DNA of 28,579 nucleotides, taken from positions 1 to 28,579 of IMG/VR virus record IMGVR_UViG_3300032431_000032. The stretch is one strand, 5' to 3'. A program made the position numbers and the translations under genes. The DNA is from a virus. Under the pieces are notes generated by a model. The model saw only the letters and a program-made list of their open reading frames with translations. It was not told where the DNA came from and did no database searches. How positions within the stretch are numbered: the stretch's first letter is position 1; each line of letters begins with the position of its first letter. Positions 12,588-26,499 of this stretch are shown here, piece after piece.

Positions 12588-12618
12588 GAACAGTAGCAGG
12601 TGTTCAGCGTCGGCGCAA
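12588..12618 (-). promoter_or_regulatory. Promoter-like site with operator-like dyad (ParB-like gene)
   Basis: On the minus strand a -35-like TTGCGC (12618-12613) is followed after 17 bases by a -10-like TACTGT (12595-12590). The dyad GAACA-N8-TGTTC (12588-12592 and 12601-12605) overlaps the -10 box, the position expected for repressor control. The 16 bases AACAGTAGCAGGTGTT (plus strand, 12589-12604) recur exactly at 18685-18700. The stop codon of the CHC2 gene falls at the edge of the dyad. Confidence 0.6.
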
Positions 12619-12852
12619 TAGGTTGATGTGCTCGACCTTCTGCATGAACTCGAACACGTCGCCGCCCTTGTCGCAACCGAAGCACTTGTAGCGCCCCGTG
12701 TCTTCACGGACGACGAACGAGCCGACCCTGTCAGTGTGGAACGGGCAGAGCCCGACCCAGTTGCGTCCGACCTGTTTTAGTGCGACGTACTGCTCAACGG
12801 TGTCGACGATCGACGCCGTCCGTCGGGTCGAAATTCTCTTACCGTCTGTCAT
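12604..12852 (-). CDS. Stand-alone CHC2-type zinc finger protein (primase-like N-domain)
   Basis: An 82-residue protein matching the zinc-binding domain at the N-terminus of DnaG-type primases. The ligands are C36 and H39 (GLCPFHTDR) and C57 and C60 (YKCFGCDKGGDVFEFM), the CHC2 spacing, preceded by the family's IVDTVEQYVALKQVGRNW. In primases this domain recognises the template start site. There is no polymerase (TOPRIM) part here or nearby. The start at 12852 follows AAGGAGACACC; the longer frame to 12942 has no ribosome binding site and overlaps the HNH gene. The protein might help host primase or act as a transcription or replication cofactor. Confidence 0.85.
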   Translation of the reverse strand: MTDGKRISTRRTASIVDTVEQYVALKQVGRNWVGLCPFHTDRVGSFVVREDTGRYKCFGCDKGGDVFEFMQKVEHINLLRRR

Positions 12853-13142
12853 GGTGTCTCCTTGGTTGTGCGTCGGATCAATAGCCCGTTGGCGTAGCTG
12901 CGTGTCGGGTGTGCGTGTACGTGTGCGTGGTGGTGATCGCACAGGGTGATCAGGTTCGACTCGTCGTGGATGGCCGGGTCCCTGTCTCCGCCCATCTGGC
13001 GTGGTTTGCGGTGATGTACGACGAGACGCATCGTGCAGGCGTCGGCGGTGTAGTCGGGGTCTTGGTCAGGTGCCTGGCAGCGCCAGTTGTCTCGGGTGAG
13101 AATCTGGTCGTGTCGTCCGGCCGGCATCGGGTTGCGGGTCAT
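12849..13142 (-). CDS. HNH endonuclease
   Basis: A 97-residue HNH nuclease with the pattern ILTRDNWRCQ, then LVVHHRKPRQMGG, then NLITLCDHHHAHVHA. Zinc-binding cysteines are C22, C36 and C68, the catalytic histidine is in HH (43-44), the Asn is N63 and the last His is H71 or H72. Small HNH proteins near terminase often assist DNA packaging or cleavage in HK97-like phages, while others are homing enzymes. The start at 13142 overlaps the methylase-like gene as ATGA; a second Met 5 codons on is possible. It overlaps the CHC2 gene by 4 bases. Confidence 0.88.
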   Translation of the reverse strand: MTRNPMPAGRHDQILTRDNWRCQAPDQDPDYTADACTMRLVVHHRKPRQMGGDRDPAIHDESNLITLCDHHHAHVHAHPTRSYANGLLIRRTTKETP

Positions 13143-13894
13143 CGGTCGACCGTTCTGGCCAGCGCTATCAGCTCGGCGAGGAACGCTGGCGGCGTGTGGA
13201 TTGCTTCGCTCGGACTCAGCCGCCCACGCCCGACGCACTCACCGCTGTTGATGCCGGCCCCGACCACTGCTCGTCCGGGCACTTCGCCCCATCGCATCTC
13301 GGTGGGTTCGACACCGATGGCGTACAGCCACGTCCGCTTGCGTGCTGCGTGGCCGTACATGACCTGCGAGATCTCGGTGACCATGCCCGGGTCGTGCAGC
13401 GATTGCGTCCAACACCCTCGGGTCGGTGTCGGCAGACCGAATCGTTTCCATGCGATCGAGTAGGCCGGGTGTTCCAGCACGCCACCGAAGGTGCGTACGG
13501 CGTCGAGCGCAGCGGCAAACGTGCCACCGTCAGCGCCGATGACGGTCCCCCATCGTTTCTGATTGACCGACGCCAACTGGCACCATGTGTTGCACGGTGG
13601 GTGGGCGACGACCGGGTGCGGCCCGTCGTAGGTGCGGGCGTCGCGCTTGATGCCCCACACGTCGACACCTGGCTCGCCGGCATAAGGCCCGTGCGTATCG
13701 ACGTAGAGCGCAGCGATCTGGCGGAGTCGATCGGTACTCGGTCGTTGGTGTGCGCCGAGCTGCTCAGCGTTGATCGTCAGTGTGCAGTCGTTGCAGCGCC
13801 GCCAGCGTTTCGGTCCGATGTGTGTGCTCCCGGTGTTCGGGCACCACTCGCAGCCCTGTGCGAGGTCGTGGTCGGCGTCGCCTGGCAGCGTCAC
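13139..13894 (-). CDS. Cytosine-methylase-like protein with N-terminal zinc knuckle
   Basis: A 251-residue protein. An N-terminal CxxC...CxxC pair (C15, C18, C34, C37) suggests a zinc-binding knuckle. The main domain contains PVVAHPPCNTWCQLAS with a PPC loop (99-101), GGVLEHPAYSIAWKRFG (138-153), and GHAARKRTWLYAIGV (181-195). These resemble the PC, EN- and QxRxR-like motifs of cytosine-5 methyltransferases. I cannot see the usual FxGxG cofactor motif, so it is either a divergent enzyme or a related protein with another activity. The start at 13894 overlaps the preceding stop as ATGA. Confidence 0.6.
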   Translation of the reverse strand: MTLPGDADHDLAQGCEWCPNTGSTHIGPKRWRRCNDCTLTINAEQLGAHQRPSTDRLRQIAALYVDTHGPYAGEPGVDVWGIKRDARTYDGPHPVVAHPPCNTWCQLASVNQKRWGTVIGADGGTFAAALDAVRTFGGVLEHPAYSIAWKRFGLPTPTRGCWTQSLHDPGMVTEISQVMYGHAARKRTWLYAIGVEPTEMRWGEVPGRAVVGAGINSGECVGRGRLSPSEAIHTPPAFLAELIALARTVDR

Positions 13895-14106
13895 CAGTCG
13901 CCGCCGTCATTCGGGATCCCGTCGACGTACCACATGACCATGTCGGGCGACCTGTCTCCCTCGCGATCCAGACTGGCCTCGTCCGTGTACACGACACACA
14001 GGCTCCCGGCCATCGACAAGAGCGTGAGCGACCTCGGCCACCGCTTCGCGACGCGCCGCAATGCAGCGACTGCCTTGATCTCGTCGTCGGTCGGTTCGCG
14101 AGTCAT
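13891..14106 (-). CDS. Small conserved phage protein
   Basis: A 71-residue protein of unknown function. It starts MTREPTDDEIKAVAALRRVA, a helical region, followed by a beta-rich half (SLTLLSMAGSLCVVY) and an acidic tail (MVMWYVDGIPNDGGDW). The Met at 14106 is chosen because it overlaps the preceding gene as ATGA; the frame open to 14208 lacks a ribosome binding site. It is coupled on both sides. Confidence 0.6.
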   Translation of the reverse strand: MTREPTDDEIKAVAALRRVAKRWPRSLTLLSMAGSLCVVYTDEASLDREGDRSPDMVMWYVDGIPNDGGDW

Positions 14107-14264
14107 CGGCTCGTCGGTTTCTTGCACACGGCGCGCCCACACGTCCCGGTCAGCAGCTTCCACACATCCTCGATCGGTACCCACACGATCTCGGCACGGC
14201 ACCAGCATTCGACCTGCACGTCATCACCCGAGCGAGGGTTGCGAGGGTTGCGTCTGCGTGTCAT
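14103..14264 (-). CDS. Small cysteine-containing protein
   Basis: A 53-residue protein with a basic N-terminus (MTRRRNPRNPRSGDDVQVEC) and cysteines in ECWC and TCGRAVCKK that could bind one zinc ion. It lies in a 4-base-overlap chain between a tiny membrane protein and the gene at 13891. The length is below that of most annotated genes, but the coupling on both sides supports it. The function is unknown. Confidence 0.5.
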   Translation of the reverse strand: MTRRRNPRNPRSGDDVQVECWCRAEIVWVPIEDVWKLLTGTCGRAVCKKPTSR

Positions 14265-14383
14265 CGGGTCACCAACGCGACGAACAGCGCCAGGATGACC
14301 AGCCACGGCCCAAGCGTGAGCGCGAGCAGCAGCAGACAGCCGATCACGAACCATCGCCACTCGCCGCTGTCGTTGTTGCTCAC
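14261..14383 (-). CDS. Tiny membrane protein (40 residues)
   Basis: A GTG-started protein: SNNDSGEWRW is followed by a continuous hydrophobic stretch of about 28 residues (FVIGCLLLLALTLGPWLVIL and on) with a Gly-Pro in the middle, ending VTR. That is one long or two short membrane helices. The GTG at 14383 overlaps the stop of the HNH-like gene as GTGA, and its end overlaps the next gene as ATGA. The function is unknown; size and topology fit small holin-like or inner-membrane-acting phage proteins. Confidence 0.6.
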   Translation of the reverse strand: MSNNDSGEWRWFVIGCLLLLALTLGPWLVILALFVALVTR

Positions 14384-14688
14384 GTGAACCACCTGCGGCT
14401 CGTCGGGTTGCCGTTGCGTCGCTTCGCTCGTTCGTGCTTCAACTTGCCGCCGAACTTGAAGTTGCATGTCGACACCTCGGGTGCGAGCGGCGAGTTCGGG
14501 TCGGAGTCAATGACGTGGCCGGCAGTCCAGAACGCCGGCCGACCGTCCTTGTGCGGTCGGTGCTCGACCAGGGTCTTGCCGCACCGCCAGCATGTGGTCA
14601 GCGAATCCCGTCGAGCGTGAGCGACGAGGGTGCGGGCCCGTCGTGCGTAGTCGCCTCGGTAGTGCGCCGGCTTCGGTCGGTAGCTCAT
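14380..14688 (-). CDS. Second HNH-type nuclease-like protein
   Basis: A 102-residue basic protein with TCWRCGKTL (C33, C36), WTAGHVIDSDP (H58) and EVSTCNFKFGGKLKHERAKR (C75, N76). The arrangement CxxC, then (G)H, then C-N is that of HNH zinc-stabilised nucleases. The start MSYRPKPAHYRGDYARRART at 14688 overlaps the preceding gene as ATGA; the open frame upstream to 15018 is a shadow of other genes. It is distinct from the HNH gene at 12849, with little similarity outside the motif. Confidence 0.7.
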   Translation of the reverse strand: MSYRPKPAHYRGDYARRARTLVAHARRDSLTTCWRCGKTLVEHRPHKDGRPAFWTAGHVIDSDPNSPLAPEVSTCNFKFGGKLKHERAKRRNGNPTSRRWFT

Positions 14689-14885
14689 GCGTCGACCGGT
14701 GCCAGACGCAGGTCGCTGATCGGGATCTGCTGGCCGCAGGTGCCGCACACCGCGATCGTGCCGTGTTGCGGTGTCGTGCCGTCGAGCAGGATCACGTTTG
14801 ATGCTCGGACTGGGTGGCCTCGTTGGATCGGGCCGCGATGGCGCATCGCCACGTGCATGTCCCGGTGCCACAGGTCGACGATCAT
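14685..14885 (-). CDS. Small zinc-ribbon protein
   Basis: A 66-residue protein starting MIVDLWHRDMHVAMRHRGPI. The C-terminal half has one CxxC (VCGTCGQQIPISDLRL), with histidines in the N-terminal half (H7, H10, H15) that might complete a zinc site. The start at 14885 overlaps the previous stop as ATGA. I recognise no family, and the role may be DNA or protein binding. Confidence 0.55.
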   Translation of the reverse strand: MIVDLWHRDMHVAMRHRGPIQRGHPVRASNVILLDGTTPQHGTIAVCGTCGQQIPISDLRLAPVDA

Positions 14886-15067
14886 CGCCGCGCCCGAGAC
14901 CGTCGCCACTGCACGCCGAGCACACGCTCACCCCGAAGCCGAAGGTACGCACCACGCGACAGATCCGACCGCCATAGTCGCGCTCGGTCCCGCTTGCTTG
15001 TGTGGCCTGCGTAGGCACGCAACCACCACCCGCAGCGTTCGAGCACGATCTCTCCCTCTGCGCTCAT
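14882..15067 (-). CDS. Small basic protein
   Basis: A 61-residue arginine-rich protein (MSAEGEIVLERCGWWLRAYA, then LRLRGERVLGVQWRRSRARR). Its high positive charge suggests contact with nucleic acid. The start at 15067 overlaps the stop of the 27-residue gene upstream as ATGA. I see no family motif. Confidence 0.5.
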   Translation of the reverse strand: MSAEGEIVLERCGWWLRAYAGHTSKRDRARLWRSDLSRGAYLRLRGERVLGVQWRRSRARR

Positions 15068-15147
15068 CGTCGAGTCAGCTTGCCGTCGAGCCACACGATC
15101 GCTGCAACCAGCACCACCAGCGCGACGATCGCCTGCAGATCACTCAC
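15064..15147 (-). CDS. Micro membrane protein (27 residues)
   Basis: A GTG-started frame of 27 residues, SDLQAIVALVVLVAAIVWLD followed by GKLTRR: a single perfect membrane helix with a short acidic N-terminus and a basic end. The GTG at 15147 overlaps the stop of the ribbon-helix-helix gene, and its TGA overlaps the next ATG as ATGA. The exact coupling at both ends makes it credible despite its length. The function is unknown. Confidence 0.55.
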   Translation of the reverse strand: MSDLQAIVALVVLVAAIVWLDGKLTRR

Positions 15148-15358
15148 GTTTCGCTCCCTGCTTGGTTTGACGAGTCCAGACGATCTCCTCGACCGGGAGC
15201 AGGTCGCGGAGGAACTGCTCGACAGCCCGATTCACGAGGAAGTTGACAGACAGGTCTCGCTCGTCGGCGGCGGCGTGGAGTCGAGCGAGGGTGTCGGCTT
15301 GGAATCGAACCCCCGTAGCGGTCCGATTCCTGTTCGCCGGGTTTCCTGGTCGGCTCAT
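15140..15358 (-). CDS. Ribbon-helix-helix DNA-binding protein
   Basis: A 72-residue protein with an Arc/CopG-type fold: strand TGVRFQADTLARLHAAADER, then helix-turn LSVNFLVNRAVEQFLRDLLP. Such proteins dimerise and bind operators through the paired strand. The N-terminal MSRPGNPANRNRTA is basic and unstructured. It is the clearest small transcription-regulator candidate in the window and so the best candidate to bind the GAACA-N8-TGTTC dyads, although that link is only inference. The start at 15358 overlaps the preceding zinc-ribbon gene as ATGA. Confidence 0.75.
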   Translation of the reverse strand: MSRPGNPANRNRTATGVRFQADTLARLHAAADERDLSVNFLVNRAVEQFLRDLLPVEEIVWTRQTKQGAKRE

Positions 15359-15612
15359 CGCTTCCTCCTGTGCTCGCCAGCGTTCGGACACGTGACGAAG
15401 TGTGACAGGTACCGGTACTCGGTGAGCGTGGCTGTCGGGTTCGCCGCGACGACCGGCACCGGCATCGCAGGTGGCCCGCCACGCCACTCCACGACCCCGA
15501 GGTTGCCGTTCGGGTTCGCCTCGGCGTCGAGCGGCACCCGTCTGCCTGTCGTCGCTGAGACCGCCCATCTGATCTTGGCCCCGCACGACTTGCAGACACC
15601 GTCAGACCTCAT
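15355..15612 (-). CDS. Zinc-ribbon protein
   Basis: An 85-residue protein starting MRSDGVCKSCGAKIRWAVSA with a CxxC knuckle, then TGRRVPLDAEANPNGNLGVV, and a second set of ligands near the end (SHFVTCPNAGEHRRKR: H, C, H). This layout, with a CxxC, a P-L-(D/N)-x-E-P stretch and a late H/C pair, is common in small actinophage proteins. It overlaps the gene upstream by 11 bases. The function is unknown. Confidence 0.65.
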   Translation of the reverse strand: MRSDGVCKSCGAKIRWAVSATTGRRVPLDAEANPNGNLGVVEWRGGPPAMPVPVVAANPTATLTEYRYLSHFVTCPNAGEHRRKR

Positions 15613-15790
15613 CGGGCCACTCCTTGCGCATCGCACGGAACTGGAACGAGGCACCGCTGAGGTCGCGAACCCGGTAGGCCTCGATCGCATGACACAACGC
15701 GTTGAAGCGTCGTTCCGCCTTGCGTCGCCGCCAGCAGCGGAACGCGAACAGCGGGTGTCTCAGCGAGTAGCGCCACAGCGGCCAGTTCAC
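15602..15790 (-). CDS. Small basic hypothetical protein
   Basis: A 62-residue protein, MNWPLWRYSLRHPLFAFRCW followed by RRRKAERRFNALCHAIEAYR. The N-terminus is aromatic and basic and may lie on a membrane; the rest is one or two helices ending KEWPDEV. The start overlaps the preceding stop as ATGA. I recognise no family. Confidence 0.5.
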   Translation of the reverse strand: MNWPLWRYSLRHPLFAFRCWRRRKAERRFNALCHAIEAYRVRDLSGASFQFRAMRKEWPDEV

Positions 15791-16020
15791 TGCACGACCC
15801 CGATGATGTCGGCGACAGCGACCGGGCGGATCGTGTCACGGTGCTCGTCCGGGAATCGCACCCCGCACATCGTCGGGTCGCCGTGACGACACCTGACCGT
15901 CTTGTGCGGGTTCGGGTTTGCTGGCGGTGCGTACACGATCACTCCGGTGCGCCCGTCGAGCAGCGTCACCGTTGCTCGCGCCTTCGCAGCAGCGACGAGC
16001 GCCTTGTTGGCTGCGCTCAT
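15787..16020 (-). CDS. Small hypothetical protein
   Basis: A 77-residue protein: helix MSAANKALVAAAKARATVTL, then a beta-rich part (TGVIVYAPPANPNPHKTVRC) with C and H residues (CRHGDPTMCGVRF) that may bind zinc, and an end ADIIGVVQ. The Met at 16020 overlaps the preceding stop as ATGA. The frame open to 16431 is a shadow of the gene at 16017. The function is unknown. Confidence 0.55.
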   Translation of the reverse strand: MSAANKALVAAAKARATVTLLDGRTGVIVYAPPANPNPHKTVRCRHGDPTMCGVRFPDEHRDTIRPVAVADIIGVVQ

Positions 16021-16385
16021 GCGTGGCTTGCCAGTTCGGCGCCGAGCGCGTTCAGGAACAGAGCGAACACGGTCGCCGTCCACGTCCCCTGCGGGTCGGT
16101 GACGTAGTGGCTGAGCGCATAGTCGGGATGCATGACGTCGCGACCCGACCATGCAGCCATTGGGCCCATGCTCGAAGCGAACCGGTAGTCGTCGGTGATC
16201 TGGCTCCACATGATCGCAATCTGGTATCGGGTGCCGTCGTTGGGTTGGAGCTCCACCCACGCCCACCCCTGATCCATGATGGCCGGCCATGCCACGATCG
16301 CGGCGCGCTCGATGTGTTCCCGGTCGAGTTCGATCACTGCCGGGAAGCGGACAGGGTCGCCCCGGATGTCGTCGTTCATGCTCAT
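16017..16385 (-). CDS. Paralogue B of a two-member small protein family
   Basis: A 122-residue protein clearly related to the one at 16794-17168. Shared stretches are ELxPxDGTRY(Q/E)(I/L)AI, FxSSxGxxxxW, HPDYAxxHxV and WTATVFALFLN near the end. The N-terminal helix follows DPVRFPAVIELD in this copy and NPDQFPAVTELD in the other. Two Met codons (16385 and 16379) could start it; the first overlaps the preceding stop as ATGA. I know no function. The pair brackets the secreted-protein gene, which suggests local duplication and insertion. Confidence 0.65.
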   Translation of the reverse strand: MSMNDDIRGDPVRFPAVIELDREHIERAAIVAWPAIMDQGWAWVELQPNDGTRYQIAIMWSQITDDYRFASSMGPMAAWSGRDVMHPDYALSHYVTDPQGTWTATVFALFLNALGAELASHA

Positions 16386-16768
16386 GACCGAGGCTCCGCC
16401 TGGCGAACCGTTTCCGGTGCCCGCACTGCAACTGGTGCCGGAGCGTGCTCGACCGTGGTGATGGCCGGCGCGACCGCTTCGACGACGAGCGGGGCGACGT
16501 AGTCCTTCGACACGTGAATCACCAGCGGCTCGCCGTTGAACGTCCAGTCAGCGTCAGGGACCCAACCGGTCGGCATGCACACCTCTTGCGGTGCGCCCTG
16601 GTACCAGCCGGTGTAGCAGTTCGTCTGGTCGGGGATCGGTGGCGGGCACACCTCGATCGGCGCTCCCTGGTACCAGCCCGTGTAGCACTCGGCCTCGGCC
16701 GACGCTCCGGTGCTGTAGGTGATCGTTGCGGTCGCTGCGATCAGTGCAGCGGTCAATGTCTTGTTCAT
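16382..16768 (-). CDS. Secreted protein with duplicated CYTGWYQGAP motif
   Basis: A 128-residue protein starting MNKTLTAALIAATATITYST with a signal peptide: charged start, hydrophobic core, and a likely cut after GASA at residue 24. The mature part has two copies of CYTGWYQGAPxEVC (28-41 and 51-64), each able to form a disulfide, then a valine- and proline-rich C-terminus. The start follows AAGGAGCACACC. Exported proteins are rare among phage early genes. Possible roles are a cell-surface factor or exclusion protein, but neither is shown. The end overlaps paralogue B by 4 bases. Confidence 0.7.
   Translation of the reverse strand: MNKTLTAALIAATATITYSTGASAEAECYTGWYQGAPIEVCPPPIPDQTNCYTGWYQGAPQEVCMPTGWVPDADWTFNGEPLVIHVSKDYVAPLVVEAVAPAITTVEHAPAPVAVRAPETVRQAEPRS
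16590..16687. repeat. Duplicated segment encoding CYTGWYQGAP
   Basis: Two near-identical segments (about 16590-16618 and 16659-16687) share CTGGTACCAGCC and GTGTAGCA, with few differences over about 29 bases. They encode the two copies of the disulfide motif in the secreted protein. The close DNA match suggests a fairly recent duplication or ongoing gene conversion. Confidence 0.8.
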
Positions 16769-16793
16769 GGTGTGCTCCTTGTTGGTTGGGTGT

Positions 16794-17168
16794 TCATGAG
16801 GTTTCGATGATCTCGGCGACGGTGTTGAGGAACAGAGCGAACACAGTGGCGGTCCACGGGTTGCCGTTGCTGACGAAGTGCTCTTTCGCGTAGTCCGGGT
16901 GGACGCTCGGCTCACCCATCCACGGGTACAGCGCACCGAACGACGAACCGAACCGGAACGGGGCACCGACAGCGAAGTCGAGCACCGTGACGATCGCGAG
17001 TTCGTACCGGGTGCCGTCGTCGGGTTCGAGCACCACGAACGCCCACCCTCGTTCCCTGAGCATGCCTGCTGCTCGAACAGCCGCTGCGTCGATCGCTCCG
17101 GCGTCGAGTTCGGTGACCGCAGGGAACTGGTCCGGGTTGTTCCAGATGTCTTGGCTCATCGTGCTCAT
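16794..17168 (-). CDS. Paralogue A of a two-member small protein family
   Basis: A 124-residue protein starting MSTMSQDIWNNPDQFPAVTE. It shares with the gene at 16017 the stretches DGTRYELAI, FRFGSSFGALYPW, SVHPDYAKEHFVS and NPWTATVFALFLN. The predicted fold is mixed alpha/beta. The Met at 17168 overlaps the preceding stop as ATGA; a second Met 3 codons later is an alternative. A 25-base gap then leads to the secreted-protein gene. The function is unknown. Confidence 0.65.
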   Translation of the reverse strand: MSTMSQDIWNNPDQFPAVTELDAGAIDAAAVRAAGMLRERGWAFVVLEPDDGTRYELAIVTVLDFAVGAPFRFGSSFGALYPWMGEPSVHPDYAKEHFVSNGNPWTATVFALFLNTVAEIIETS

Positions 17169-17560
17169 CGCTGCACCCACGACGGCGGGCAGACCCATTC
17201 CGTCACGTCCTCTTCGACTTCGACGGTCACGTATGCCGGTGCGACATAGTCGGGGTCGGCCGGGACCTGCTTGGTGACGATGCGAGTACCGACGACCTTC
17301 TGCTCGCAGATGTCGGAATGCTTGATCGTGCTCTCGACGGTGATTGGGCCGAACGCCTTGGTGGCGTTCAGGAAGTTGCCGCTCGTGCCCTTGGTGAACG
17401 TTCCCAGCAGTGCGTTGTTGGTCTTGAAATCGGCTTCGTTGAACGCCCAGAGGTACAGCGTCGGCGGGCCGAGCGCTGCGCCGAGTTCGGGGTTGAGATC
17501 GAGGAAGTCGGCGAGCTGTCGTAGCCCGTCAACGAGGTTGGTGTGATGTTCGGTGTTCAT
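17165..17560 (-). CDS. Conserved phage protein with start-associated leader
   Basis: A 131-residue protein starting MNTEHHTNLVDGLRQLADFL. The N-terminus is helical. Residues about 60-131 are beta-rich, with FGPITVESTIKHSDICEQKV and a closing EVEEDVTEWVCPP. This C-terminal pattern (VTVE...C..KVVGT....VEW.C.P) is familiar from actinophage proteins of unknown function. The leader is AAGGAGCATCCACTC, one mismatch from the copies at 12547, 18652 and 26384. Only 28 bases separate it from the gene upstream, so it has no obvious promoter of its own. Confidence 0.65.
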   Translation of the reverse strand: MNTEHHTNLVDGLRQLADFLDLNPELGAALGPPTLYLWAFNEADFKTNNALLGTFTKGTSGNFLNATKAFGPITVESTIKHSDICEQKVVGTRIVTKQVPADPDYVAPAYVTVEVEEDVTEWVCPPSWVQR

Positions 17561-17575
17561 GAGTGGATGCTCCTT
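17561..17575 (-). promoter_or_regulatory. Start-associated leader sequence, copy 2
   Basis: On the minus strand this reads AAGGAGCATCCACTC before the ATG at 17560. It differs from the consensus at one base. No dyad or promoter-like pair lies upstream, so the leader can occur without them. Confidence 0.8.
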
Positions 17576-17588
17576 GTGTTGGTGGTTG

Positions 17589-17873
17589 TCATCGCAGCCA
17601 CGGTCGTGGCATGTCGAGTTCGTCGAGAAACAGCATGCGGTCCCCGGTCGCAGCGAACCGGGCCGGCTCCGGGCGAGGCTCCCAGATCGCCACACCAGCG
17701 CGTGCAGCAGCGAACGCCTTGCGGATCGAGAACAGGTTCCCGGCGACGTCGATGTGGGCACGCCGATCCTCCGGTGACATCTCGGTGTGGATCTGGTGCG
17801 GTTCGATGCCGCACGTCGTGCAGGCCACCTCGTCGCCCGGGTACTCGCGCCACGAATGCACGTGAGCGTTCAT
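17589..17873 (-). CDS. Small zinc-knuckle protein
   Basis: A 94-residue protein starting MNAHVHSWREYPGDEVACTT with HxH and CTTCGIEPHQIH near the N-terminus, a possible zinc site. A helical domain follows (MSPEDRRAHIDVAGNLFSIR), then LFLDELDMPRPWLR. The start overlaps the preceding stop as ATGA. I recognise no family. Confidence 0.6.
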   Translation of the reverse strand: MNAHVHSWREYPGDEVACTTCGIEPHQIHTEMSPEDRRAHIDVAGNLFSIRKAFAAARAGVAIWEPRPEPARFAATGDRMLFLDELDMPRPWLR

Positions 17874-18289
17874 CGAAGATCACCGTTGATGCGGGCGGAG
17901 CGGATGCACTTCTCGCAGAGCGCAACGAGGTCGCCGTTGTTCCACCGGATGCGCCGCCCTGGTCGTGCTGGCTCGCTGCCGCAGCCGTCGCACGACTTGA
18001 CGTCGTCTTGAGGAACGAGCGCAGTCAGACGTTGGATCTCGGCGACAAGTTTGGTGTCTCGTTCCTGTCGGTACCCCAACGTCTCGGCTGCCTGTCGTGC
18101 GGCCGCATTGCGATTCCATGCGATGGTTTCTCGTAGCTGCTCGACAAGGGCAGCGCCGGCGGCGAGTTCTTCGCCGAGAGCGTCGATGTGATCGAGGATG
18201 ATCGTGGCGCGATCGCAACCCCACGAAATGGGCTGGCCCTTGGCAGTCACTTGCCGCCAGTGATCGATGAGGCCGGCAGCGTCACTCAT
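17870..18289 (-). CDS. Coiled-coil protein with C-terminal zinc ribbon
   Basis: A 139-residue protein. Residues about 25-95 are a long helical region (IILDHIDALGEELAAGAALV, then QAAETLGYRQERDTKLVAEI). The C-terminus carries two CxxC pairs (SCDGCGSEP and ALCEKCIRS), the layout of a treble-clef or zinc ribbon. The helical part could make it a dimer. It may be a transcription or DNA-binding accessory protein. The start overlaps the preceding stop as ATGA. Confidence 0.6.
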   Translation of the reverse strand: MSDAAGLIDHWRQVTAKGQPISWGCDRATIILDHIDALGEELAAGAALVEQLRETIAWNRNAAARQAAETLGYRQERDTKLVAEIQRLTALVPQDDVKSCDGCGSEPARPGRRIRWNNGDLVALCEKCIRSARINGDLR

Positions 18290-18651
18290 GCCGGATCACC
18301 GACGTCGAGCGTCCTGACGACGGTGAGCACTGCGCCACCACCGTTGCGGTTGTGTGCCCACGTCACGATGCGGCCCTGAGCGTCGGCGTAGGACTGGATG
18401 CGTCGGATGTCGTCGTAGGTCGCGATGCCGTTGACCTCGAACCGGTGGACGGCGTGATTGCCGAGACGTTCAGCGAGGGTTAGGTCGCACATCTGTGCGT
18501 GGATGCTGTCGGATGCCATGGTGGATGCTCCTTCGGCGATGTCGGCGTCGGCAATCTCGTGTGCGCTGGCGGTGGCGTAGTAGTTGGCGATCACGAACTC
18601 GTCGCTGTCTCTGTGGGTGGTGTCTTCGTCGTAGCCGTCGGTCGTTCCCAT
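18286..18651 (-). CDS. Promoter-proximal gene with an internal start-associated sequence
   Basis: A 121-residue frame of unknown function, starting MGTTDGYDEDTTHRDSDEFV with an acidic N-terminus. The ATG at 18651 carries the full shared leader AAGGAGCATCCACCC and lies below a promoter-like site with a dyad. Unusually, a second copy of the leader (AAGGAGCATCCACC) lies in frame inside the gene, directly before an internal ATG at 18519. A 77-residue short form (MASDSIHAQMCDLTLAERLG...) could therefore be made as well. The C-terminal half has a beta-strand pattern (IVTWAHNRNGGGAVLTVVRT). The gene may be a fusion of two small genes or a deliberate two-product gene. Confidence 0.65.
   Translation of the reverse strand: MGTTDGYDEDTTHRDSDEFVIANYYATASAHEIADADIAEGASTMASDSIHAQMCDLTLAERLGNHAVHRFEVNGIATYDDIRRIQSYADAQGRIVTWAHNRNGGGAVLTVVRTLDVGDPA
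18520..18533 (-). promoter_or_regulatory. Start-associated sequence inside a coding region, copy 3
   Basis: AAGGAGCATCCACC on the minus strand lies immediately before an in-frame ATG at 18519, within the gene at 18286-18651. It is an exact 14-base match to the external leaders and encodes part of EGAST in the long form. It predicts internal translation initiation. Confidence 0.75.
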
Positions 18652-18666: not shown

Positions 18667-18683
18667 CGTGGTGGGTGGATGAC

Positions 18684-20460: not shown

Positions 20461-20933
20461 GATCCGCTCCGGTCCGTGCTTGCTGGCATCAGCGCGAGCG
20501 GTTGGCCTGCGTACAACTCGTCCAGGTGAGCGACCATGCGCTCCCCGACAGTCGACCCATCGGGCAGCATGATGTGCGCAAGGAACTCGTCCTGGAACTC
20601 GGTGATCCCGGCCTCGACCGCTTCGAGCTTCGCCTTGATCACGAGAGCAAGGGCACGCCACCGTTGCCGTGTTGCCTGCTCCCATGCGGCCTCGGCCTGC
20701 TGCGGCGATCGCGCGTTCCTCCGCTCAGGTGTGTGCGTGAACTCACGAGACGTCGGGTCGGGCATGGCGAGCACGAACTTCACCCGTCGACCTTCTGCGA
20801 TGAACGCCACGGTTGCCTGCGTCTTGTTGGTCATGTAGGCGAACTCGTCGGCACCGTACCGGCGCAGCGTCGACTCGATTTCCATGCGCGACTTCTCGGC
20901 GGCGACGGACGTGTTCTCTGCGTAGCGGCTCAC
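20457..20933 (-). CDS. Conserved actinophage protein next to the replication initiator
   Basis: A 158-residue protein started by GTG at 20933. Its pattern recurs in many actinophages and prophages: an N-terminal IESTLRRYGADEFAYMTNKT, a beta strand with GRRVKFVLAMPDP, FTHTPERR, then ERWRALALVIKAKLEAVEAG-like (here RQRWRALALVIKAKLEAVEA) and FQDEFLAHIMLPDGSTVGER. The function is unknown to me, and it lies consistently near replication genes. It is coupled to the initiator gene by a GTGA overlap. Confidence 0.75.
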   Translation of the reverse strand: MSRYAENTSVAAEKSRMEIESTLRRYGADEFAYMTNKTQATVAFIAEGRRVKFVLAMPDPTSREFTHTPERRNARSPQQAEAAWEQATRQRWRALALVIKAKLEAVEAGITEFQDEFLAHIMLPDGSTVGERMVAHLDELYAGQPLALMPASTDRSGS

Positions 20934-21706
20934 GATCCGGTTCCGATGCCACGCTGCGAACGTGCTGCGAGCGCCGCTTCGATCCCACCACGACCCGGCA
21001 TCACCTTGCGTTGCTGCTCGTCGCGCACGGGTGGAGGTGGTGTCTCCCACTTGCCCTGATTCAGGAACCCCTGCGCGTACATCGCTTTCGACGCGTCAGG
21101 TGTTCGCCAGTAGACCACCCACGCCCGAAGGCCTTCGAGGATCAACTCGGGATCGTCACCGCGCTTCATGGCAGCGTCCCAGCACTCGCGTGACTTCTTC
21201 TTTCCAGAGCCAGCGAGGTTGCCGTAGATAGACCAGAACTCGTCAAACGGCTCGTACGTCAACAAGCTGAGCGATAGCTCGCTTGAAGAAACGTTTGGGT
21301 CAATCTGGGTCTGCTTAGAACTGGGTCTACTTCGTGCGACATCTGTGTCCCTACGGGTGTGGACATCTGTGTCCAGAGGGGTCTGGACGTACGTGTCCCG
21401 GGGTAGGGACGTCAGCAGCCGGTAGTTGCTGCTCGTCATGTCACCCTGATCCGTGTGTCGGTGCGTCACTTCGAGCGCCCCGACGTCGACGAGAGCGGCG
21501 ATGTACCGGTCGATCGTCTTGGTCGAGCAGCCGATGTAGTCGGCGACGGTCTTTCGGCTCGGGTGGCAGTCGCGGTCGTTGCCGTTCGTCCATTTGGAGA
21601 GCCCGACGTACAGTCGAAGCGCTTCGGTCTGGTCGATGCCGACGAGGCGTTCGAGCACCCACAGCGGGGCGATAGAGAAGGGACCGATATCAGTGGTGGT
21701 GGTCAT
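20930..21706 (-). CDS. Replication initiator-like protein (helix-turn-helix + C-terminal helical domain)
   Basis: A 258-residue protein. Residues about 25-100 form a winged helix-turn-helix of the HTH_36 kind: EALRLYVGLSKWTN, CHPSRKTVADYIGCSTKTID, RYIAALVDVGALEV. Residues about 102-145 are a low-complexity linker with repeated DTDV and DTYV units. Residues about 150-225 resemble the C-terminal part of phage replication proteins (YEPFDEFWSIYGNLAGSGKK, then AMYAQGFLNQGKWE). The layout is that of lambda O-type initiators: origin binding first, helicase recruitment last. The DNA for the linker holds three iteron-like repeats (21338-21409). The Met at 21706 overlaps the preceding stop as ATGA. Confidence 0.75.
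   Translation of the reverse strand: MTTTTDIGPFSIAPLWVLERLVGIDQTEALRLYVGLSKWTNGNDRDCHPSRKTVADYIGCSTKTIDRYIAALVDVGALEVTHRHTDQGDMTSSNYRLLTSLPRDTYVQTPLDTDVHTRRDTDVARSRPSSKQTQIDPNVSSSELSLSLLTYEPFDEFWSIYGNLAGSGKKKSRECWDAAMKRGDDPELILEGLRAWVVYWRTPDASKAMYAQGFLNQGKWETPPPPVRDEQQRKVMPGRGGIEAALAARSQRGIGTGS
21338..21409. repeat. Three 24-base iteron-like repeats, candidate replication origin
   Basis: Plus-strand units start at 21338, 21362 and 21386 with a 24-base period. The first two share GACATCTGTGTCC exactly, followed by related GGGT-rich halves; the third reads GACGTACGTGTCC. Each core is a near-palindrome (GACA-N4-TGTC). They lie in the linker of the initiator gene, and the flank at about 21270-21320 looks less GC-rich than the surroundings. 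In lambda the origin iterons occupy the same place in gene O. The origin role is inference. Confidence 0.5.
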
Positions 21707-22245
21707 GAGAACTTGCCGCCTGATTCGAGTTCTGCTCGAACGGATCCGATGTCCAGAGCGGTCACCAGATCGTCGACCTGCGGCAGCGCTGCCAGCCACT
21801 CGGACGCCTCGCTCGATACCAACGCGGTCGCAGCAAGGCGACCCTCGATCGAAACCGCCTCCCGGTCGACGGCCAGCTTCGCGGCGTCACACATGGCGTC
21901 AGCGCGCTTCGATGCGACCCGTCGAAGCTGAGACTTGCGCATGTCGATGTCGGGGCGGGAGTGCCAGCCCATGCCGATGTACGGGCGCAGATCGGTTCGA
22001 ATGTGGAGCCGGTCGAAGATCTCGGCGAGGTCTCGGTTGGCGTCCTTCACGGCCTTCTCGGCAGCCCTGGTCACCTCAACCCAGCGGGCGTCTTCGGCTG
22101 AAAACTCTTCGGTGAGTTCCGTCTCGAAGTCGGCGAGCAGTGACGACTTGCGGGCGTCGATGTCTTTCTTGGCGACCATCGCTCGTCGTCGGATCAGCGA
22201 ACGCAGTTCGGATCGTTCGGCTTTGGTCAGCGTTTCGTTCATCAT
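21703..22245 (-). CDS. Helical conserved phage protein
   Basis: A 180-residue, strongly helical, highly charged protein starting MMNETLTKAERSELRSLIRR. Long heptad-like stretches (SLLADFETELTEEFSAEDAR, VTRAAEKAVKDANRDLAEIF) suggest a coiled coil in the first half. The second half contains AAKLAVDREAVSIEGRLAAT and ends VRAELESGGKFS. It is the first gene after the 22313-22360 hairpin, so a new transcript may start here. Two ATG codons (22245 and 22242) follow GAAAGCGAGAG. The function is unknown; it precedes the initiator with a 4-base overlap. Confidence 0.65.
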   Translation of the reverse strand: MMNETLTKAERSELRSLIRRRAMVAKKDIDARKSSLLADFETELTEEFSAEDARWVEVTRAAEKAVKDANRDLAEIFDRLHIRTDLRPYIGMGWHSRPDIDMRKSQLRRVASKRADAMCDAAKLAVDREAVSIEGRLAATALVSSEASEWLAALPQVDDLVTALDIGSVRAELESGGKFS

Positions 22246-22312
22246 CTCTCGCTTTCGGGTTGAGTTCCCGATGCGTGTAGGATGGAACGCATCAGGCCAG
22301 CACCTGTAACGT

Positions 22313-22360
22313 AGCACGACCCCGACCGCCTGCGTCAAGCAAGCCGGTCGGGGTCGTGCT
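22313..22360 (-). terminator. 16-base-pair perfect hairpin after the methyltransferase gene
   Basis: The arms AGCACGACCCCGACCG (22313-22328) and CGGTCGGGGTCGTGCT (22345-22360) match perfectly around a 16-base loop. It begins 5 bases after the stop of the adenine methyltransferase gene, the place of a terminator ending the recombination block. A TTTT run follows on the plus strand only; on the minus strand the next bases are ACGTTAC, so for the genes here termination would rest on the stem. It could work in both directions. Confidence 0.7.
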
Positions 22361-22365
22361 GGTTT

Positions 22366-22857
22366 TCAGGCCGTTGGATCTTGTCGAAGCACCCTGACGG
22401 GACCGAGCCGACTGATTGCGTCAACGCACTCCTCGCCGAACGCTGCGAACACGACGGGCATGAAGACGTTTTCGAGCTTGCCGTCCGAGGCGCGCATGAA
22501 ACGAAACATCCCTGCGTCGGCGATTGCTGGTGCCGACGACCACAGACGGCCCCACCACGCCGATCGCGAGTGCGGGATGAGCGCCACCCCGTTGCCGTGT
22601 TCGATGAACCTGTCGGCCCAGGGCGTCGTATTGCTGTACGGCGGGTTCATCCACACACGACCAACCCACGGCGTAGCGAGTCCGTCGTCCTCCTGTGTCA
22701 TGAACCGGGCAGCCGGCACCCAGTCCACGCCACCAGGTGGCGCACACACGTCGATGTCGAACTCGATGCCCATGCGCTCGAACACCCACGGCGGCGTGTA
22801 GTAGTCGTCCGACGTCGTGCCGTGCTGAGCAACGGGGAACAGCCGAGGTTCGAGCAT
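22366..22857 (-). CDS. Phage DNA N6-adenine methyltransferase (Dam-like)
   Basis: A 163-residue protein of the phage Dam type. It shows SDDYYTPPWVFERMGIEFDI and DVCAPP near the N-terminus, EDDGLATPWVGRVWMNPPYS with the catalytic NPPY at residues 71-74, then RFIEHGNGVALIPHSRSAWW. The family methylates adenine N6, often in GATC, and may protect phage DNA or time replication and packaging. The protein is about the usual family size. It is the last gene before the long hairpin and follows the gene at 22860 with a 2-base gap. Confidence 0.88.
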   Translation of the reverse strand: MLEPRLFPVAQHGTTSDDYYTPPWVFERMGIEFDIDVCAPPGGVDWVPAARFMTQEDDGLATPWVGRVWMNPPYSNTTPWADRFIEHGNGVALIPHSRSAWWGRLWSSAPAIADAGMFRFMRASDGKLENVFMPVVFAAFGEECVDAISRLGPVRVLRQDPTA

Positions 22858-22859
22858 CG

Positions 22860-23219
22860 TCAGGCTGCTGTGTGAGCGTCTACGGGTGTTCGCAGCGCGA
22901 CAGACTCGGCGAGCGCTTCCTCACGCAGCAAACGCCACACAGGTACCTCTACGTCGACCGCGGCCCACTCGGGCCACAGCGCTGCAGCGTGCAAGCCGAG
23001 CGTCGTCGCGATCGTGTCGCAATCGAAGTACAGGGCGCCGTGTACGCGCCATCCCAGGATCTTGCGGCGATCGACTTGCAGCACGTCAGCGAGCCACACC
23101 GCGGCGTTGATGCCGCCACCGGTTTCGGCTTGTGCTTGTCGGTTGCCGTTCGGGTCTGGGTGGCGGATGCGGATGTACTGCTCGACCGGGTCGAACGGGA
23201 AACGAACCGGGCGCGTCAC
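22860..23219 (-). CDS. Small protein with a possible helix-turn-helix
   Basis: A 119-residue protein started by GTG at 23219 (GTGA overlap). The N-terminal TRPVRFPFDPVEQYIRIR is followed by helices NAAVWLADVLQVDRRKILGW and then CDTIATTLGLHAAALWPEWA. The repeated turn pattern and the closing WPEW resemble small phage DNA-binding proteins. The C-terminus (EVPVWRLLREEALAESVALR) is helical. No precise family or function can be assigned. Confidence 0.6.
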   Translation of the reverse strand: MTRPVRFPFDPVEQYIRIRHPDPNGNRQAQAETGGGINAAVWLADVLQVDRRKILGWRVHGALYFDCDTIATTLGLHAAALWPEWAAVDVEVPVWRLLREEALAESVALRTPVDAHTAA

Positions 23220-23533
23220 TCGTCCCCGCCTTCTGATTGCACGCTTGCGTGAGTGACGGCAACAGCCCTCGCCACCGCTTCGTCGATGCTGTCGAATTCG
23301 TCGCACCGCACGCCCCACTTCGATGGCTTGCGTCCCTTGCCGCAGACCTCGCGCCCGCTGCCGTCGAGCACCAGCAGCTCGCCCACGTAGAACACAGGAA
23401 CCCGCAGGTCCAGTGCGCCGGCCAATCCGATCGCCCCACCTTGGCTGTCGAACAGTTGGCCCCATGCCGTGGCGAGGTTGCCGACGTCATCGGTGTCGAC
23501 GTAGGTGACGACTGCGTACGTGACGTCGCTCAC
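23216..23533 (-). CDS. Hypothetical protein
   Basis: A 105-residue protein: a beta-rich N-terminal half (SDVTYAVVTYVDTDDVGNLA, then DLRVPVFYVGELLVLDGSGR) and a charged helix near the end (DSIDEAVARAVAVTHASVQS). The ATG at 23533 overlaps the preceding stop as ATGA. It belongs to the recombination block by position. I recognise no family. Confidence 0.6.
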   Translation of the reverse strand: MSDVTYAVVTYVDTDDVGNLATAWGQLFDSQGGAIGLAGALDLRVPVFYVGELLVLDGSGREVCGKGRKPSKWGVRCDEFDSIDEAVARAVAVTHASVQSEGGDE

Positions 23534-23922
23534 GACTCGGCCTGTTCCTTCGCTGCCTGCTCGGCGATCTCGGCGTCGGTGAAGTCGAATTCCTCGACGC
23601 CCTTCGCTGACTGGATCGCCTTGCGTTGCTTCTCGATCAGCTCGACAGCGAACTCGGGGTCGACGAGCGTCGCAGTGCCGGCTTTCAACGTGTGGACCCG
23701 CTTCAACACGTCGGTGTCTTTCAGCTCGTCGTACTGCACCCGGGTGACTTCGGCCTCGATCAGCAGGTACCGGGTCTCGCCGTGACGCATCTCGATCGGC
23801 TCGATCGACATCGCCTCGGACAGACCGTCGCCGGCGTTCGTGACTTTGATCGTCGCCTGTACGACGTCGCGGCCCTCGTAGCTCGACAGGCCTTTCGTCG
23901 AGGTCGTCTTCTTCTTCGTCAT
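23530..23922 (-). CDS. Conserved protein of the recombination block
   Basis: A 130-residue protein with a basic start (MTKKKTTSTKGLSSYEGRDV), a central beta domain (EPIEMRHGETRYLLIEAEVT, RVQYDELKD, RVHTLKAGTATLVDPEFAVE) and an acidic C-terminus. The central pattern is common in actinophages directly beside ERF/RusA-type genes, so a role in recombination or DNA binding is likely but not defined. The ribosome binding site AAGGAGCAACCATC lies inside the end of the RusA-like gene, which it overlaps by 4 bases. Confidence 0.7.
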   Translation of the reverse strand: MTKKKTTSTKGLSSYEGRDVVQATIKVTNAGDGLSEAMSIEPIEMRHGETRYLLIEAEVTRVQYDELKDTDVLKRVHTLKAGTATLVDPEFAVELIEKQRKAIQSAKGVEEFDFTDAEIAEQAAKEQAES

Positions 23923-24458
23923 GATGGTTGCTCCTTGGTGTTTGGTATTGGGATGGGTCGGACCGGTGGCGGTGCGCCGTCCGGGTCGATGGTGTGGATC
24001 TGGATGGTGCAGCCGACCTCGTGGGCGTGGATCGTTTCGATCTTCGCCGCAGCGAACGACACGATTCGTGCGTCGTCGTGAATCAGCCGGCCATCGGTCA
24101 GCGAGTCACCGACCGCCCGGAACAGCTTGTCTCCGTCAGGGACCGACACCTTCCAGCACCAGCCCCTGACGAAGTCGGCTTTGGGTCGCGACTGCGGCAT
24201 TGGGAACCGGAACACGATCGCACAATGCAGGGGACCGTCGAGCGGCCCGAGGTTGCGTGCCGTGCGTTGCTGCGCTGCGAGACGTGCGACGCCGGCCACG
24301 TTCCTGCGCCACGGCTTCAATGTCCCGGCGTTCGTGTCGAACAGCTCGGCGATCAGCTTCGTGCCGACCATGCGCGCCCGGGCACCCTTCGAGCCTTGCT
24401 GCACCGGGAGACCGACAACACGGATCTGCGCGCCGTCAAACTCGTACGGCGCGCTCAT
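23919..24458 (-). CDS. rusA: RusA-like Holliday junction resolvase
   Basis: A 179-residue endonuclease that cuts four-way DNA junctions formed during recombination or replication. The RusA signature is VSVPDGDKLFRAVGDSLTDG (D108, D110, K111, R114, D118), followed by RLIHDDARIVSF with D128 and D129. The acidic residues would hold the catalytic magnesium. The protein is longer than E. coli RusA (about 120 residues) because of an N-terminal extension of about 35 residues and a proline-rich tail. The Met at 24458 overlaps the preceding stop; the frame open to 24842 is a shadow. The neighbouring ERF-type gene supports the assignment. Confidence 0.82.
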   Translation of the reverse strand: MSAPYEFDGAQIRVVGLPVQQGSKGARARMVGTKLIAELFDTNAGTLKPWRRNVAGVARLAAQQRTARNLGPLDGPLHCAIVFRFPMPQSRPKADFVRGWCWKVSVPDGDKLFRAVGDSLTDGRLIHDDARIVSFAAAKIETIHAHEVGCTIQIHTIDPDGAPPPVRPIPIPNTKEQPS

Positions 24459-24793
24459 CCCGACACCCGCCACACTGACGGCACCTCGGTCAGCGACGCC
24501 CGCAGCATCTCGCGCAGCACCGGCAGCAGCGTGTCGTAGCTCCCCCACTCGTTCGGTGGGTCCATCGCTCGATACCTCGCCGGGTTGGAGTCCAGCTCCA
24601 CGATGATGTCGGTGAGGAACTTCGCGCCGGTCGGGGCCGACATCCCGTCGAGCACTTTCCACCATGACATCTCGATCAGGGTGCCGCTCTGCGCGAGCGC
24701 CATCGTGATCATCGGGTTGCAGTTGTGTGTGTAGTTCCAATCGGACGCTGAGCAGTGACATGCCGTGCAGTGCAGAGTTGCGTCCCAGCTCAC
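24455..24793 (-). CDS. Conserved small protein between ERF and RusA genes
   Basis: A 112-residue protein with an N-terminal cysteine/histidine-rich stretch (TLHCTACHCSASDWNYTHNC) that may bind zinc, followed by helices (GSYDTLLPVLREMLRASLTE) and an end VPSVWRVSG. The pattern NPARYRAMDPPNEWGSYD with paired helices is familiar in actinophages next to recombination genes. No activity is known to me. It overlaps the ERF-type gene by ATGA. Confidence 0.65.
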   Translation of the reverse strand: MSWDATLHCTACHCSASDWNYTHNCNPMITMALAQSGTLIEMSWWKVLDGMSAPTGAKFLTDIIVELDSNPARYRAMDPPNEWGSYDTLLPVLREMLRASLTEVPSVWRVSG

Positions 24794-25623
24794 GCCGGTT
24801 CCGTTTCTTCGACATCGGATGAGGCCACATCGACCACACCATCGGCGGGAACGTCGGCGCGTTCCTCGTCGAGTTCGTCGAGCATCTTGATCACCTCGGC
24901 TCGCCAGTCGTCGTCAGCGAGCAGCCACCCCGGCGACAGGCTTCGATCCATCGCCTTCGCCCACTCCTTCACGACAGCCGCCTCGTCGGGTCGAGCCTTG
25001 AACGCTGCGAGTCGAACACCCAGCTCGTCGACCTCGCGCTCAGCCTCGGTCGGCTCACGTGGTGCAAGTTCCTCGTGGTTGCGGTTGTCGCGTTCGTGCG
25101 TGATGCCATCGGTGTCGTCGTCGGGGTCGCCGATGGTCAGCATGCGCAGCACCAGATTCTTGTACGCCTGCGTCATCGCCTTCGCGTAGCCCTTGTCGGA
25201 GTTGTCGCGACCGAGGCCCACCGTTCGAGCGGTCAGCGTCGTCCCGTTCGGGCCGGCGATCAGCCACGTCACCGTCACCGTCGTGTCTGTCCACGGCTTC
25301 GAGTTGACCATGATGTCGTCGACTACGTGTGAGTCGACGTTCGGCACGATCACGATGCCGTACTTGCCGAACAACGGTTGGGCCGCGGAGGTCACTGCGT
25401 CGATGCCACGGAACGGATATTTGAGGCCACCGGACTCGCCGGGTTCCGGCGTCTTCCTCTTCTTGGCGATGCCGCCGATCTCGGCCTGCACCCGGGCGAG
25501 CGCAGCGACGACGTCGACCGGACCATCTGCTCGGACTGCCGCGATCTGCTCGGCGACAGCTTCAAGCGCTTTCTCTGCTGCCCCGGTGTTCGTGTCGAAC
25601 GGCTCAGCCTTCCGAGCGGTCAT
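24790..25623 (-). CDS. ERF-family single-strand annealing recombinase
   Basis: A 277-residue protein of the ERF superfamily, which pairs complementary single strands in phage recombination. The core covers residues about 38-172: DVVAALARVQAEIGGIAKKR, YPFRGIDAVTSAAQPLFGKY, GIVIVPNV, and the strongly conserved GYAKAMTQAYKNLVLRMLTI followed by GDPDDDTDG. The C-terminus is acidic (DELDEERADVPADG), a common feature of single-strand DNA partner proteins. The start at 25623 overlaps the small zinc protein as ATGA. A Gam-like gene upstream and RusA-like gene downstream form a complete recombination cassette. Confidence 0.85.
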   Translation of the reverse strand: MTARKAEPFDTNTGAAEKALEAVAEQIAAVRADGPVDVVAALARVQAEIGGIAKKRKTPEPGESGGLKYPFRGIDAVTSAAQPLFGKYGIVIVPNVDSHVVDDIMVNSKPWTDTTVTVTWLIAGPNGTTLTARTVGLGRDNSDKGYAKAMTQAYKNLVLRMLTIGDPDDDTDGITHERDNRNHEELAPREPTEAEREVDELGVRLAAFKARPDEAAVVKEWAKAMDRSLSPGWLLADDDWRAEVIKMLDELDEERADVPADGVVDVASSDVEETEPA

Positions 25624-25799
25624 GACGGCACCGGCGTCGAAAGGATGGCGCGCTTGCACCAGTCGCACTGCATTGCCTGCCACGGCAGCAGCAACGTCGG
25701 TTGAGGAATCTCACACGTACACACGTCGTACCGGTCGATGCTGTGTCTCCCTGTGTGGCCAGCGGAGAGAGTGCAGTGGGACGTTCGCTCACACCTCAT
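25620..25799 (-). CDS. Small zinc-binding protein
   Basis: A 59-residue protein starting MRCERTSHCTLSAGHTGRHS with C and H pairs (C3, C9, H15, H19). Later it has DVCTCEIPQ and QAMQCDWCKRAIL, so two small zinc sites are possible. The start at 25799 overlaps the Gam-like gene's stop as ATGA. The longer frame to 26156 is a shadow. The function is unknown; co-transcription suggests a role in the recombination block. Confidence 0.6.
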   Translation of the reverse strand: MRCERTSHCTLSAGHTGRHSIDRYDVCTCEIPQPTLLLPWQAMQCDWCKRAILSTPVPS

Positions 25800-26383
25800 G
25801 ACTGCACCTCGGATTCGTAGCTCAGCACACTTGACTCGTAGCTGACCGACCACGACGGATCCGGCATCGCAGCGTCGACACCCGGCACTCTCTCGCCGTT
25901 CGAGTCGATCACGTTGATCCCGACGATCGTCGCGGTGATCGACTTGACGCCGGTCACGTTCACGGTTCGGCCGAGGATGTCGGGGTGGTTCGCTTCGGCC
26001 CACACCAGCAGCGCCGGCCGGTCGACGATCTCGACGTGCGGGGTCTTCGATACTCGGATGCGCGACGTGCCATGCGGCAGCGCCAGCGTCTTCGACGACT
26101 TCGGGTCGCGTGCGAGGCGTGCGAGGTGGAACGCTCGGACAGGTTCCTCGTGCCATGCGATGCGCGCGTCGAGCGTGCGTTGGCGCTCAGCGAGCCGCAG
26201 TTGCAGCCGTTCGATCTCGGCACGGAACACAGCGGTGAGCTGATCGCGTTCGTGCTGATACCTCGCCGACATCGACAGGTGCCAGCTTGCCCGTTCGAGC
26301 GCTTCGGCGTCACCGGGCGGCATGTTCGCCGGCTCGTCGTAGTCGAGGTCGGATGCGTCGTCGGGGTACAGGTCGGGATTCAT
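25796..26383 (-). CDS. Gam-like host-nuclease inhibitor
   Basis: A 195-residue protein. Residues about 42-92 are a long helix (HERDQLTAVFRAEIERLQLR, then LDARIAWHEEPVRAFHLARL). It is followed by a beta part: SSKTLALPHGTSRIRVSKTP, HVEIVDRPALLVWAEANHPD, and TVNVTGVKSITATIV. This coiled coil plus strand pattern matches Mu Gam-type proteins, which bind double-strand DNA ends and block host RecBCD/AddAB-type nucleases. The C-terminal tail repeats SYESSVLSYESE. The start at 26383 has the full shared leader and a promoter-like site above it, so this is probably the first early gene. Longer frames to 26491 lack a ribosome binding site. Confidence 0.65.
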   Translation of the reverse strand: MNPDLYPDDASDLDYDEPANMPPGDAEALERASWHLSMSARYQHERDQLTAVFRAEIERLQLRLAERQRTLDARIAWHEEPVRAFHLARLARDPKSSKTLALPHGTSRIRVSKTPHVEIVDRPALLVWAEANHPDILGRTVNVTGVKSITATIVGINVIDSNGERVPGVDAAMPDPSWSVSYESSVLSYESEVQS

Positions 26384-26398
26384 GGGTGGATGCTCCTT
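26384..26398 (-). promoter_or_regulatory. Start-associated leader sequence, copy 5 (Gam-like gene)
   Basis: AAGGAGCATCCACCC on the minus strand directly before the ATG at 26383, identical to copies at 12547 and 18652. Here it heads the recombination block. Confidence 0.85.
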
Positions 26399-26418
26399 CG
26401 TTGGATGGATGTACGACA

Positions 26419-26451
26419 CGAACACTAGCGCATGTTCGGAGGGTGTGCGAA
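26419..26451 (-). promoter_or_regulatory. Promoter-like site with perfect dyad at the head of the early genes
   Basis: On the minus strand a -35-like TTCGCA (26451-26446), an 18-base spacer, and -10-like TAGTGT (26427-26422). The dyad CGAACA-N8-TGTTCG (26419-26424 and 26433-26438) is perfect and overlaps the -10 box. The next bases down, GTGTCGTAC, are also shared with the 12546 promoter region. Confidence 0.6.
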
Positions 26452-26483: not shown

Positions 26484-26499
26484 CTCAGCACGCCAGGGG

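Follow-up and report, generated by a model that had tools for sequence, protein, structure and literature searches.

In cluster K mycobacteriophages, a 13-bp repeat termed SAS stands before start codons, and about half of the copies also have an inverted repeat, ESAS, upstream of them (Pope et al., 2011; PMC3203893). In the phage Adephagia, ESAS contains SigA-like promoters with a spacing of 17-18 bases, and the authors propose that a regulator binds the repeat (PMC11373665). The function of SAS and ESAS in mycobacteriophages is stated in this literature to be unknown, as is the regulator (PMC3203893, PMC11373665). Judged by comparison of the sequences, the cassette described here resembles SAS/ESAS in its layout but is not a member by sequence.

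Genome Setting and Probable Host

The DNA analyzed, hereafter the window, is the whole of virus record IMGVR_UViG_3300032431_000032 (positions 1-28,579; 28,579 bases, 64% G+C), and its recognisable genes are carried by the minus strand. Terminase (7457-9130) and capsid genes occupy the left part of the window and a tail-spike-like gene (26592-27869) the right part; between them stretches a long series of genes for replication and recombination, together with genes without assignment. A replication initiator is encoded at 20930-21709. The window also contains a diverged direct duplication of at least about 170 bases (16212-16379 and 16992-17159, spacing 780). Megablast of positions 9000-28579 against 50,697 phage records, cluster K genomes included, returned no DNA match, and the cassette itself found no convincing match in phage-record DNA. 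Since the terminase and the capsid are remotely related to those of actinophages, the host is likely an actinobacterium; one remote relative of the terminase was found in Cryobacterium (32% identity).

Leader Repeats and the Genes behind Them

The 13-bp sequence CGAAGGAGCATCC precedes the ATG codons at 12546, 18519, 18651 and 26383. Three of these codons are preceded on the minus strand by the leader CGAAGGAGCATCCACCC: SAS 1 (12547-12563) directly before ATG 12546, SAS 2 (18652-18668) before ATG 18651, and SAS 3 (26384-26400) before ATG 26383. These three of the four exact SAS copies in the window are the ones associated with the promoter-dyad element described below, which is absent both from the fourth (18523-18535, minus strand) and from the variant ACAAGGAGCATCCAC (17563-17577, minus strand, before ATG 17560), the latter being kept in a relative, G001, at position 5671. 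The fourth copy lies in frame inside gene 18286-18651, 132 bases in and before ATG 18519, which suggests either a second possible start or a leader fused into the gene and left behind by gene exchange. Weaker leader variants, CAAGGAGCA after CAACCAAC or CAAACAC, stand before start codons at 16768 and 23922, and at L011 positions 11552 and 11869; some CAAGGAGCA variants directly follow TGA, which may be the stop of the upstream gene. Two GGAGCATCC-type copies lie on the plus strand at 26498-26536, upstream of site 3, and no plus-strand gene comes after them.

The genes behind the three complete cassettes, all on the minus strand, are diverse. Behind the first promoter (P1) is a ParB-like gene of 315 aa (11599-12546; phrog_1033, E 5.9e-9); behind P2 is a gene of 121 aa (18286-18651) with no family match, in whose place G001 has an unrelated gene; and behind P3 is a Mu Gam-like end-protection gene (25796-26383; PF07352, E 2.6e-8; phrog_2205, E 3e-14). 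The Gam-like gene is the first in a recombination/replication run, being followed by ERF (24790-25626) and RusA-like (within 23919-24842) genes, both assigned by family match.

Like the cluster K SAS, the leader is a 13-bp repeat with a ribosome-binding core (AGGAGC in both) placed just before the start codons of a subset of non-structural genes. The two differ in sequence, CGAAGGAGCATCC in the window against GGGATAGGAGCCC in cluster K, and the latter consensus has 0 matches in the window at up to two mismatches. They also differ in copy number, with 4 exact copies plus variants in the window versus 11-19 copies in cluster K.

A Small Dyad over Three Promoter-like Sites

All three dyads belong to the minus strand, and each precedes a gene of that strand. 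Dyad 1, an operator candidate (12588-12605; minus strand GAACACCTGCTACTGTTC, listed as GAACAGTAGCAGGTGTTC), is exact with 5-bp arms. Dyad 2 (18684-18701; minus strand AAACACCTGCTACTGTTA, listed as TAACAGTAGCAGGTGTTT) has the arms TAACA/TGTTT, in which only AACA and TGTT pair. Dyad 3 (26419-26438; minus strand CGAACATGCGCTAGTGTTCG) has an exact core, GAACACTAGCGCATGTTC, at 26420-26437, reads GAACATGCGCTAGTGTTC on the coding (minus) strand, and reaches 6-bp arms when 26419 and 26438 are counted. The preliminary description had reported three dyads of the GAACA-N8-TGTTC type, all of which exist, but site 2 departs from that formula in lacking the outer G and C and has 4-bp arms. Its observation that sites 1 and 2 share 16 identical bases is confirmed: AACAGTAGCAGGTGTT is common to these two sites only (shuffle mean 0.07).

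The motif AACA-N8-TGTT was observed 3 times in the window, where shuffles give 0.155 on average (max 2), GAACA-N8-TGTTC twice versus 0.03 in shuffles, and RAACANNNGCTASTGTT 3 times on the minus strand versus 0 in 200 shuffles; since the cassette copies share ancestry, the dyad may be a single event that was copied and not several independent ones. Pairs of AACA and TGTT with spacers other than N8 occur 0-1 times in the window, without enrichment. At two sites the left arm shares bases with a stop codon: TGA (12604-12606) of a primase-like gene (a primase zinc finger gene of the minus strand, ending at 12604) at site 1, and TAA (18700-18702) of the 18700 gene at site 2. The outermost base pair at both sites is thereby partly constrained. 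Because the right arm coincides with the -10, the left AACA is the main independent evidence for the dyad.

Each dyad overlaps a TANNNT hexamer, which at sites 1 and 2 is preceded by an extended TGN. On the minus strand, the predicted P1 pairs the -10 TACTGT (12590-12595, preceded by TGC) with a weak -35-like TTGCGC (12613-12618) over a 17-base spacer; P2 pairs the same hexamer (18686-18691, again preceded by TGC) with a weak -35, TCGACA (18709-18714), also over 17 bases; and P3 pairs TAGTGT (26422-26427) with a weak -35-like TTCGCA (26446-26451) over 18 bases. To read these pairs as promoters is to rely on -10s of the actinobacterial TANNNT type, with the hexamers and the spacing judged by inspection. 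By this criterion the promoter-like pairs that had been placed under the dyads show such -10 hexamers and 17-18 base spacers; all three -35s are weak, and none of the three was called by a strict, E. coli-style sigma-70 scan. The interval from the end of the dyad to the start codon (ATG 12546, 18651 and 26383) is 32-41 bases, close to the 33-42 bases previously given as the distance from dyad to leader; its endpoint is the start codon, and the leader lies within it.

Just upstream of P3, a hairpin without a T run (26445-26491, minus strand; -31.3 kcal/mol, z -5.2) includes the -35 of this promoter in its 3' arm. It is kept in G001 (-33.8 kcal/mol, z -5.5), where its loop is shorter and a U-G is replaced by C-G, and is probably the terminator of the tail-gene transcript; the position of P3 right behind a strong conserved hairpin fits the start of a new transcription unit. 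Upstream of sites 1 and 2, no hairpin of comparable strength is present.

The likeness to ESAS lies in the placement before a subset of SAS genes, the -10 TACTGT, an inverted repeat over what, in the window, would be a SigA-like promoter by its -10 and its 17-18 base spacing, and a possible terminator hairpin upstream. ESAS, however, is an imperfect repeat whose arms are 15-17 bp long and extend from the -35 to past the -10, whereas those of the window are 4-6 bp (18-20 bp in total) and cover the -10 only. The Adephagia ESAS sequence runs TGTTGACATGCATACAG...TTACTGTATGCATaTCAACA with the -10 TACTGT; its right-arm region contains no AACA-N8-TGTT, and its arm TGTTGACATGCATACAG has no match in the window with 3 mismatches allowed.

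The Same Cassette in a Relative

G001, the IMG/VR contig IMGVR_UViG_3300020203_000057 (33,154 bases), was reached through its terminase, which is 98% identical. Its structural genes share about 91-93% DNA identity with those of the window, and the early region is mosaic. The sequence RAACANNNGCTASTGTT is found in 3 copies in each of the two genomes. In G001, cassette g1 (6875) is orthologous to site 2 and leads into a different gene, g2 (9847) occupies a new position before a replication-initiator-like gene, and g3 (15488), like its orthologue site 3, precedes the Gam-like gene. For site 1, no orthologue was found in this contig. In all six copies some 30-42 nt separate the element from a start codon, and the SAS falls within this interval. 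Of the regulon predicted earlier, what gains support from this recurrence, three times in G001, once in a new place and once before a swapped gene, is a promoter-operator shared by several early or middle units.

Across the four non-orthologous copies, AACA, GCTA and TGTT are all invariant, whereas none of 40 upstream columns is (0/40), and variation is seen at the three bases that separate AACA from GCTA. Since the arms and GCTA have remained invariant while the upstream columns diverged, the alignment supports reading the element as a conserved promoter-operator, and this patchy retention is the main evidence for a function beyond recent copying. Between site 3 and g3, 1 of 80 promoter-leader bases differs, compared with 52 of 588 bases of the following gene. 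Site 2 and g1 are closely alike in the upstream HTH-like gene, the promoter and the leader; immediately past the start codon, the genes of the two sites are unrelated. The leader is thus also a boundary for gene exchange, because the similarity between these two sites ends at the start codon and because an in-frame SAS lies at 18523. Separately, G001 encodes (L011 1549-2355) a queuine tRNA-ribosyltransferase-like protein (phrog_1279, E 5.8e-92), a possible sign of deazapurine DNA modification or of host takeover.

In the collections searched, the cassette was found in these two genomes only. Apart from matches judged to be due to chance, a scan of 2.9 million viral contigs found it only in G001, which was also the only relative found when the Gam-like and 18906 proteins were used as queries. 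Looser IMG/VR scans returned L013 and 22 matches outside G001, which were set aside as chance; their G+C is lower (0.27-0.53), they lack the leader CGAAGGAGCATCC, and most have a single operator match. The terminase led to more distant relatives at 28 loci; the operator is absent from eight larger contigs among the terminase relatives, and G003, a 62% terminase relative, contains neither the operator nor a SAS-like leader repeat. A pattern search across 84,980 genomes of bacteria and archaea found no copy of the cassette, which therefore names no host.

A Proposed Modular Control Cassette and Alternative Explanations

The repetition and conservation of the cassette, its position, and its presence in a relative at a new place and before a swapped gene are observed. 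We consider it fairly probable (about 0.6) that all three sites represent a single modular promoter-operator-leader control cassette, repressed by a dimer and co-switching the units behind it. In the mechanism that we infer, as regards promoter identity, repressor binding at the dyad and choice of protein, a host-type, actinobacterial SigA-like promoter with a TANNNT -10 would have its -10 region covered by a small dyad operator, AACA-N8-TGTT. A small DNA-binding protein would bind the dyad as a dimer and thereby keep RNA polymerase from the -10; the units that begin with the Gam-like gene, the ParB-like gene and the gene without family match would be switched together; and a ribosome-binding leader (SAS) about 30 nt downstream would give their mRNAs a common, strong translation start. 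An RNA-hairpin reading of the dyad was ruled out, because the predicted transcript start is downstream of the left arm, which would therefore be absent from any transcript made from the promoter.

The alternative that survives best is that the sites share only a promoter type, in which AACA and the extended -10 (GCTANTGTT) would be contacts of RNA polymerase or sigma, perhaps of one specific sigma factor from host or phage, with the symmetry being incidental. We regard this as possible, if unlikely. The -10 itself makes up the right arm, the left one has 4 bp, symmetry beyond these 4 bp is inconsistent, and another element could compensate for the weak -35s. Incidental symmetry nevertheless fits poorly with the specific enrichment of the N8 spacing over other spacings, with the 6-bp arms retained at site 3 despite differing inner bases, and with the inverted repeats that similar cluster K promoters also bear.

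Alternatively, the sites could be recombination boundaries, that is, recent cassette copies that mainly provide homology for early-gene exchange and owe their identity to copying and not to a common regulator. The near-perfect match of promoter and upstream gene between site 2 and its G001 orthologue, with unrelated genes after the start codon, the further G001 cassette before a different gene, and the extra in-frame SAS inside the gene behind site 2 all agree with exchange at these places. Simple recent copying does not, however, predict patchy conservation, in which the arms, GCTA and SAS are kept and the inner 3 bases, the -35 region and the linker are lost; exchange would moreover be compatible with a regulatory role as well, and we hold boundaries without common regulation to be quite improbable.

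Finally, binding of the dyad by a host regulator, e.g., of the LexA type, which would couple the phage promoters to the state of the host, seems very improbable: the half-sites of site 3 (CGAACA/TGTTCG) match the actinobacterial LexA half-site CGAAC/GTTCG (SOS box), with which the window has GAAC/GTTC in common, but they are 6 bp too far apart (N10, not N4), site 2 lacks the G and C, and GAAC-N4-GTTC occurs 0 times in the whole window.

Candidate Regulators

As the controlling phage protein, the preliminary description had named a ribbon-helix-helix protein at 15140 as one candidate. This is a real open reading frame encoding an Arc-like protein of 72 aa (15143-15358, minus strand; phrog_3180, E 0.0012), but the gene was not found in G001 despite the same operators: its flanks are colinear there and joined at G001 4921-4924, and tblastn for the protein in G001 gave nothing significant. 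The ribbon-helix-helix protein is thus disfavored and probably not the regulator; G001 may be slightly incomplete, with the gene possibly in the missing part.

The HTH-like 18700 protein (68 aa; 18700-18906, minus strand; phrog_686, E 0.013, a weak match) appears a better candidate than the others named earlier, because it is conserved (98.5% identical in G001), its gene directly precedes site 2, and it has this weak HTH match. Its similarity to annotated HTH/sigma-like proteins of Microbacterium phages is non-significant (E 0.2-0.9), and its structural model shows three helices at moderate confidence, with no significant PDB match. The 17870 protein has no family match, and no relative of it was found in G001. 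A conserved protein encoded at 22860-23219, HTH-like by eye, was rejected as family searches and its model (pLDDT 41) gave no support. The regulator could also be a host protein or an unseen phage protein.

Concluding Remarks

A second, sequence-unrelated system with the SAS/ESAS layout suggests that the layout itself is functional, and the cassette of the window, being smaller, is simple to test. Since the gene is swapped cleanly after the leader, the site also shows how such leaders can act as joints in mosaic genomes. More speculatively, and with considerable doubt, cassettes of SAS and promoter-operator may have originated, or dispersed, on several occasions among actinophages, each time with an unrelated sequence, and the 18700 protein would be the founding regulator. 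If true, this would be a widely used means of controlling scattered early genes as a single regulon, at the levels of both transcription and translation, while leaving the genes swappable at the leader.
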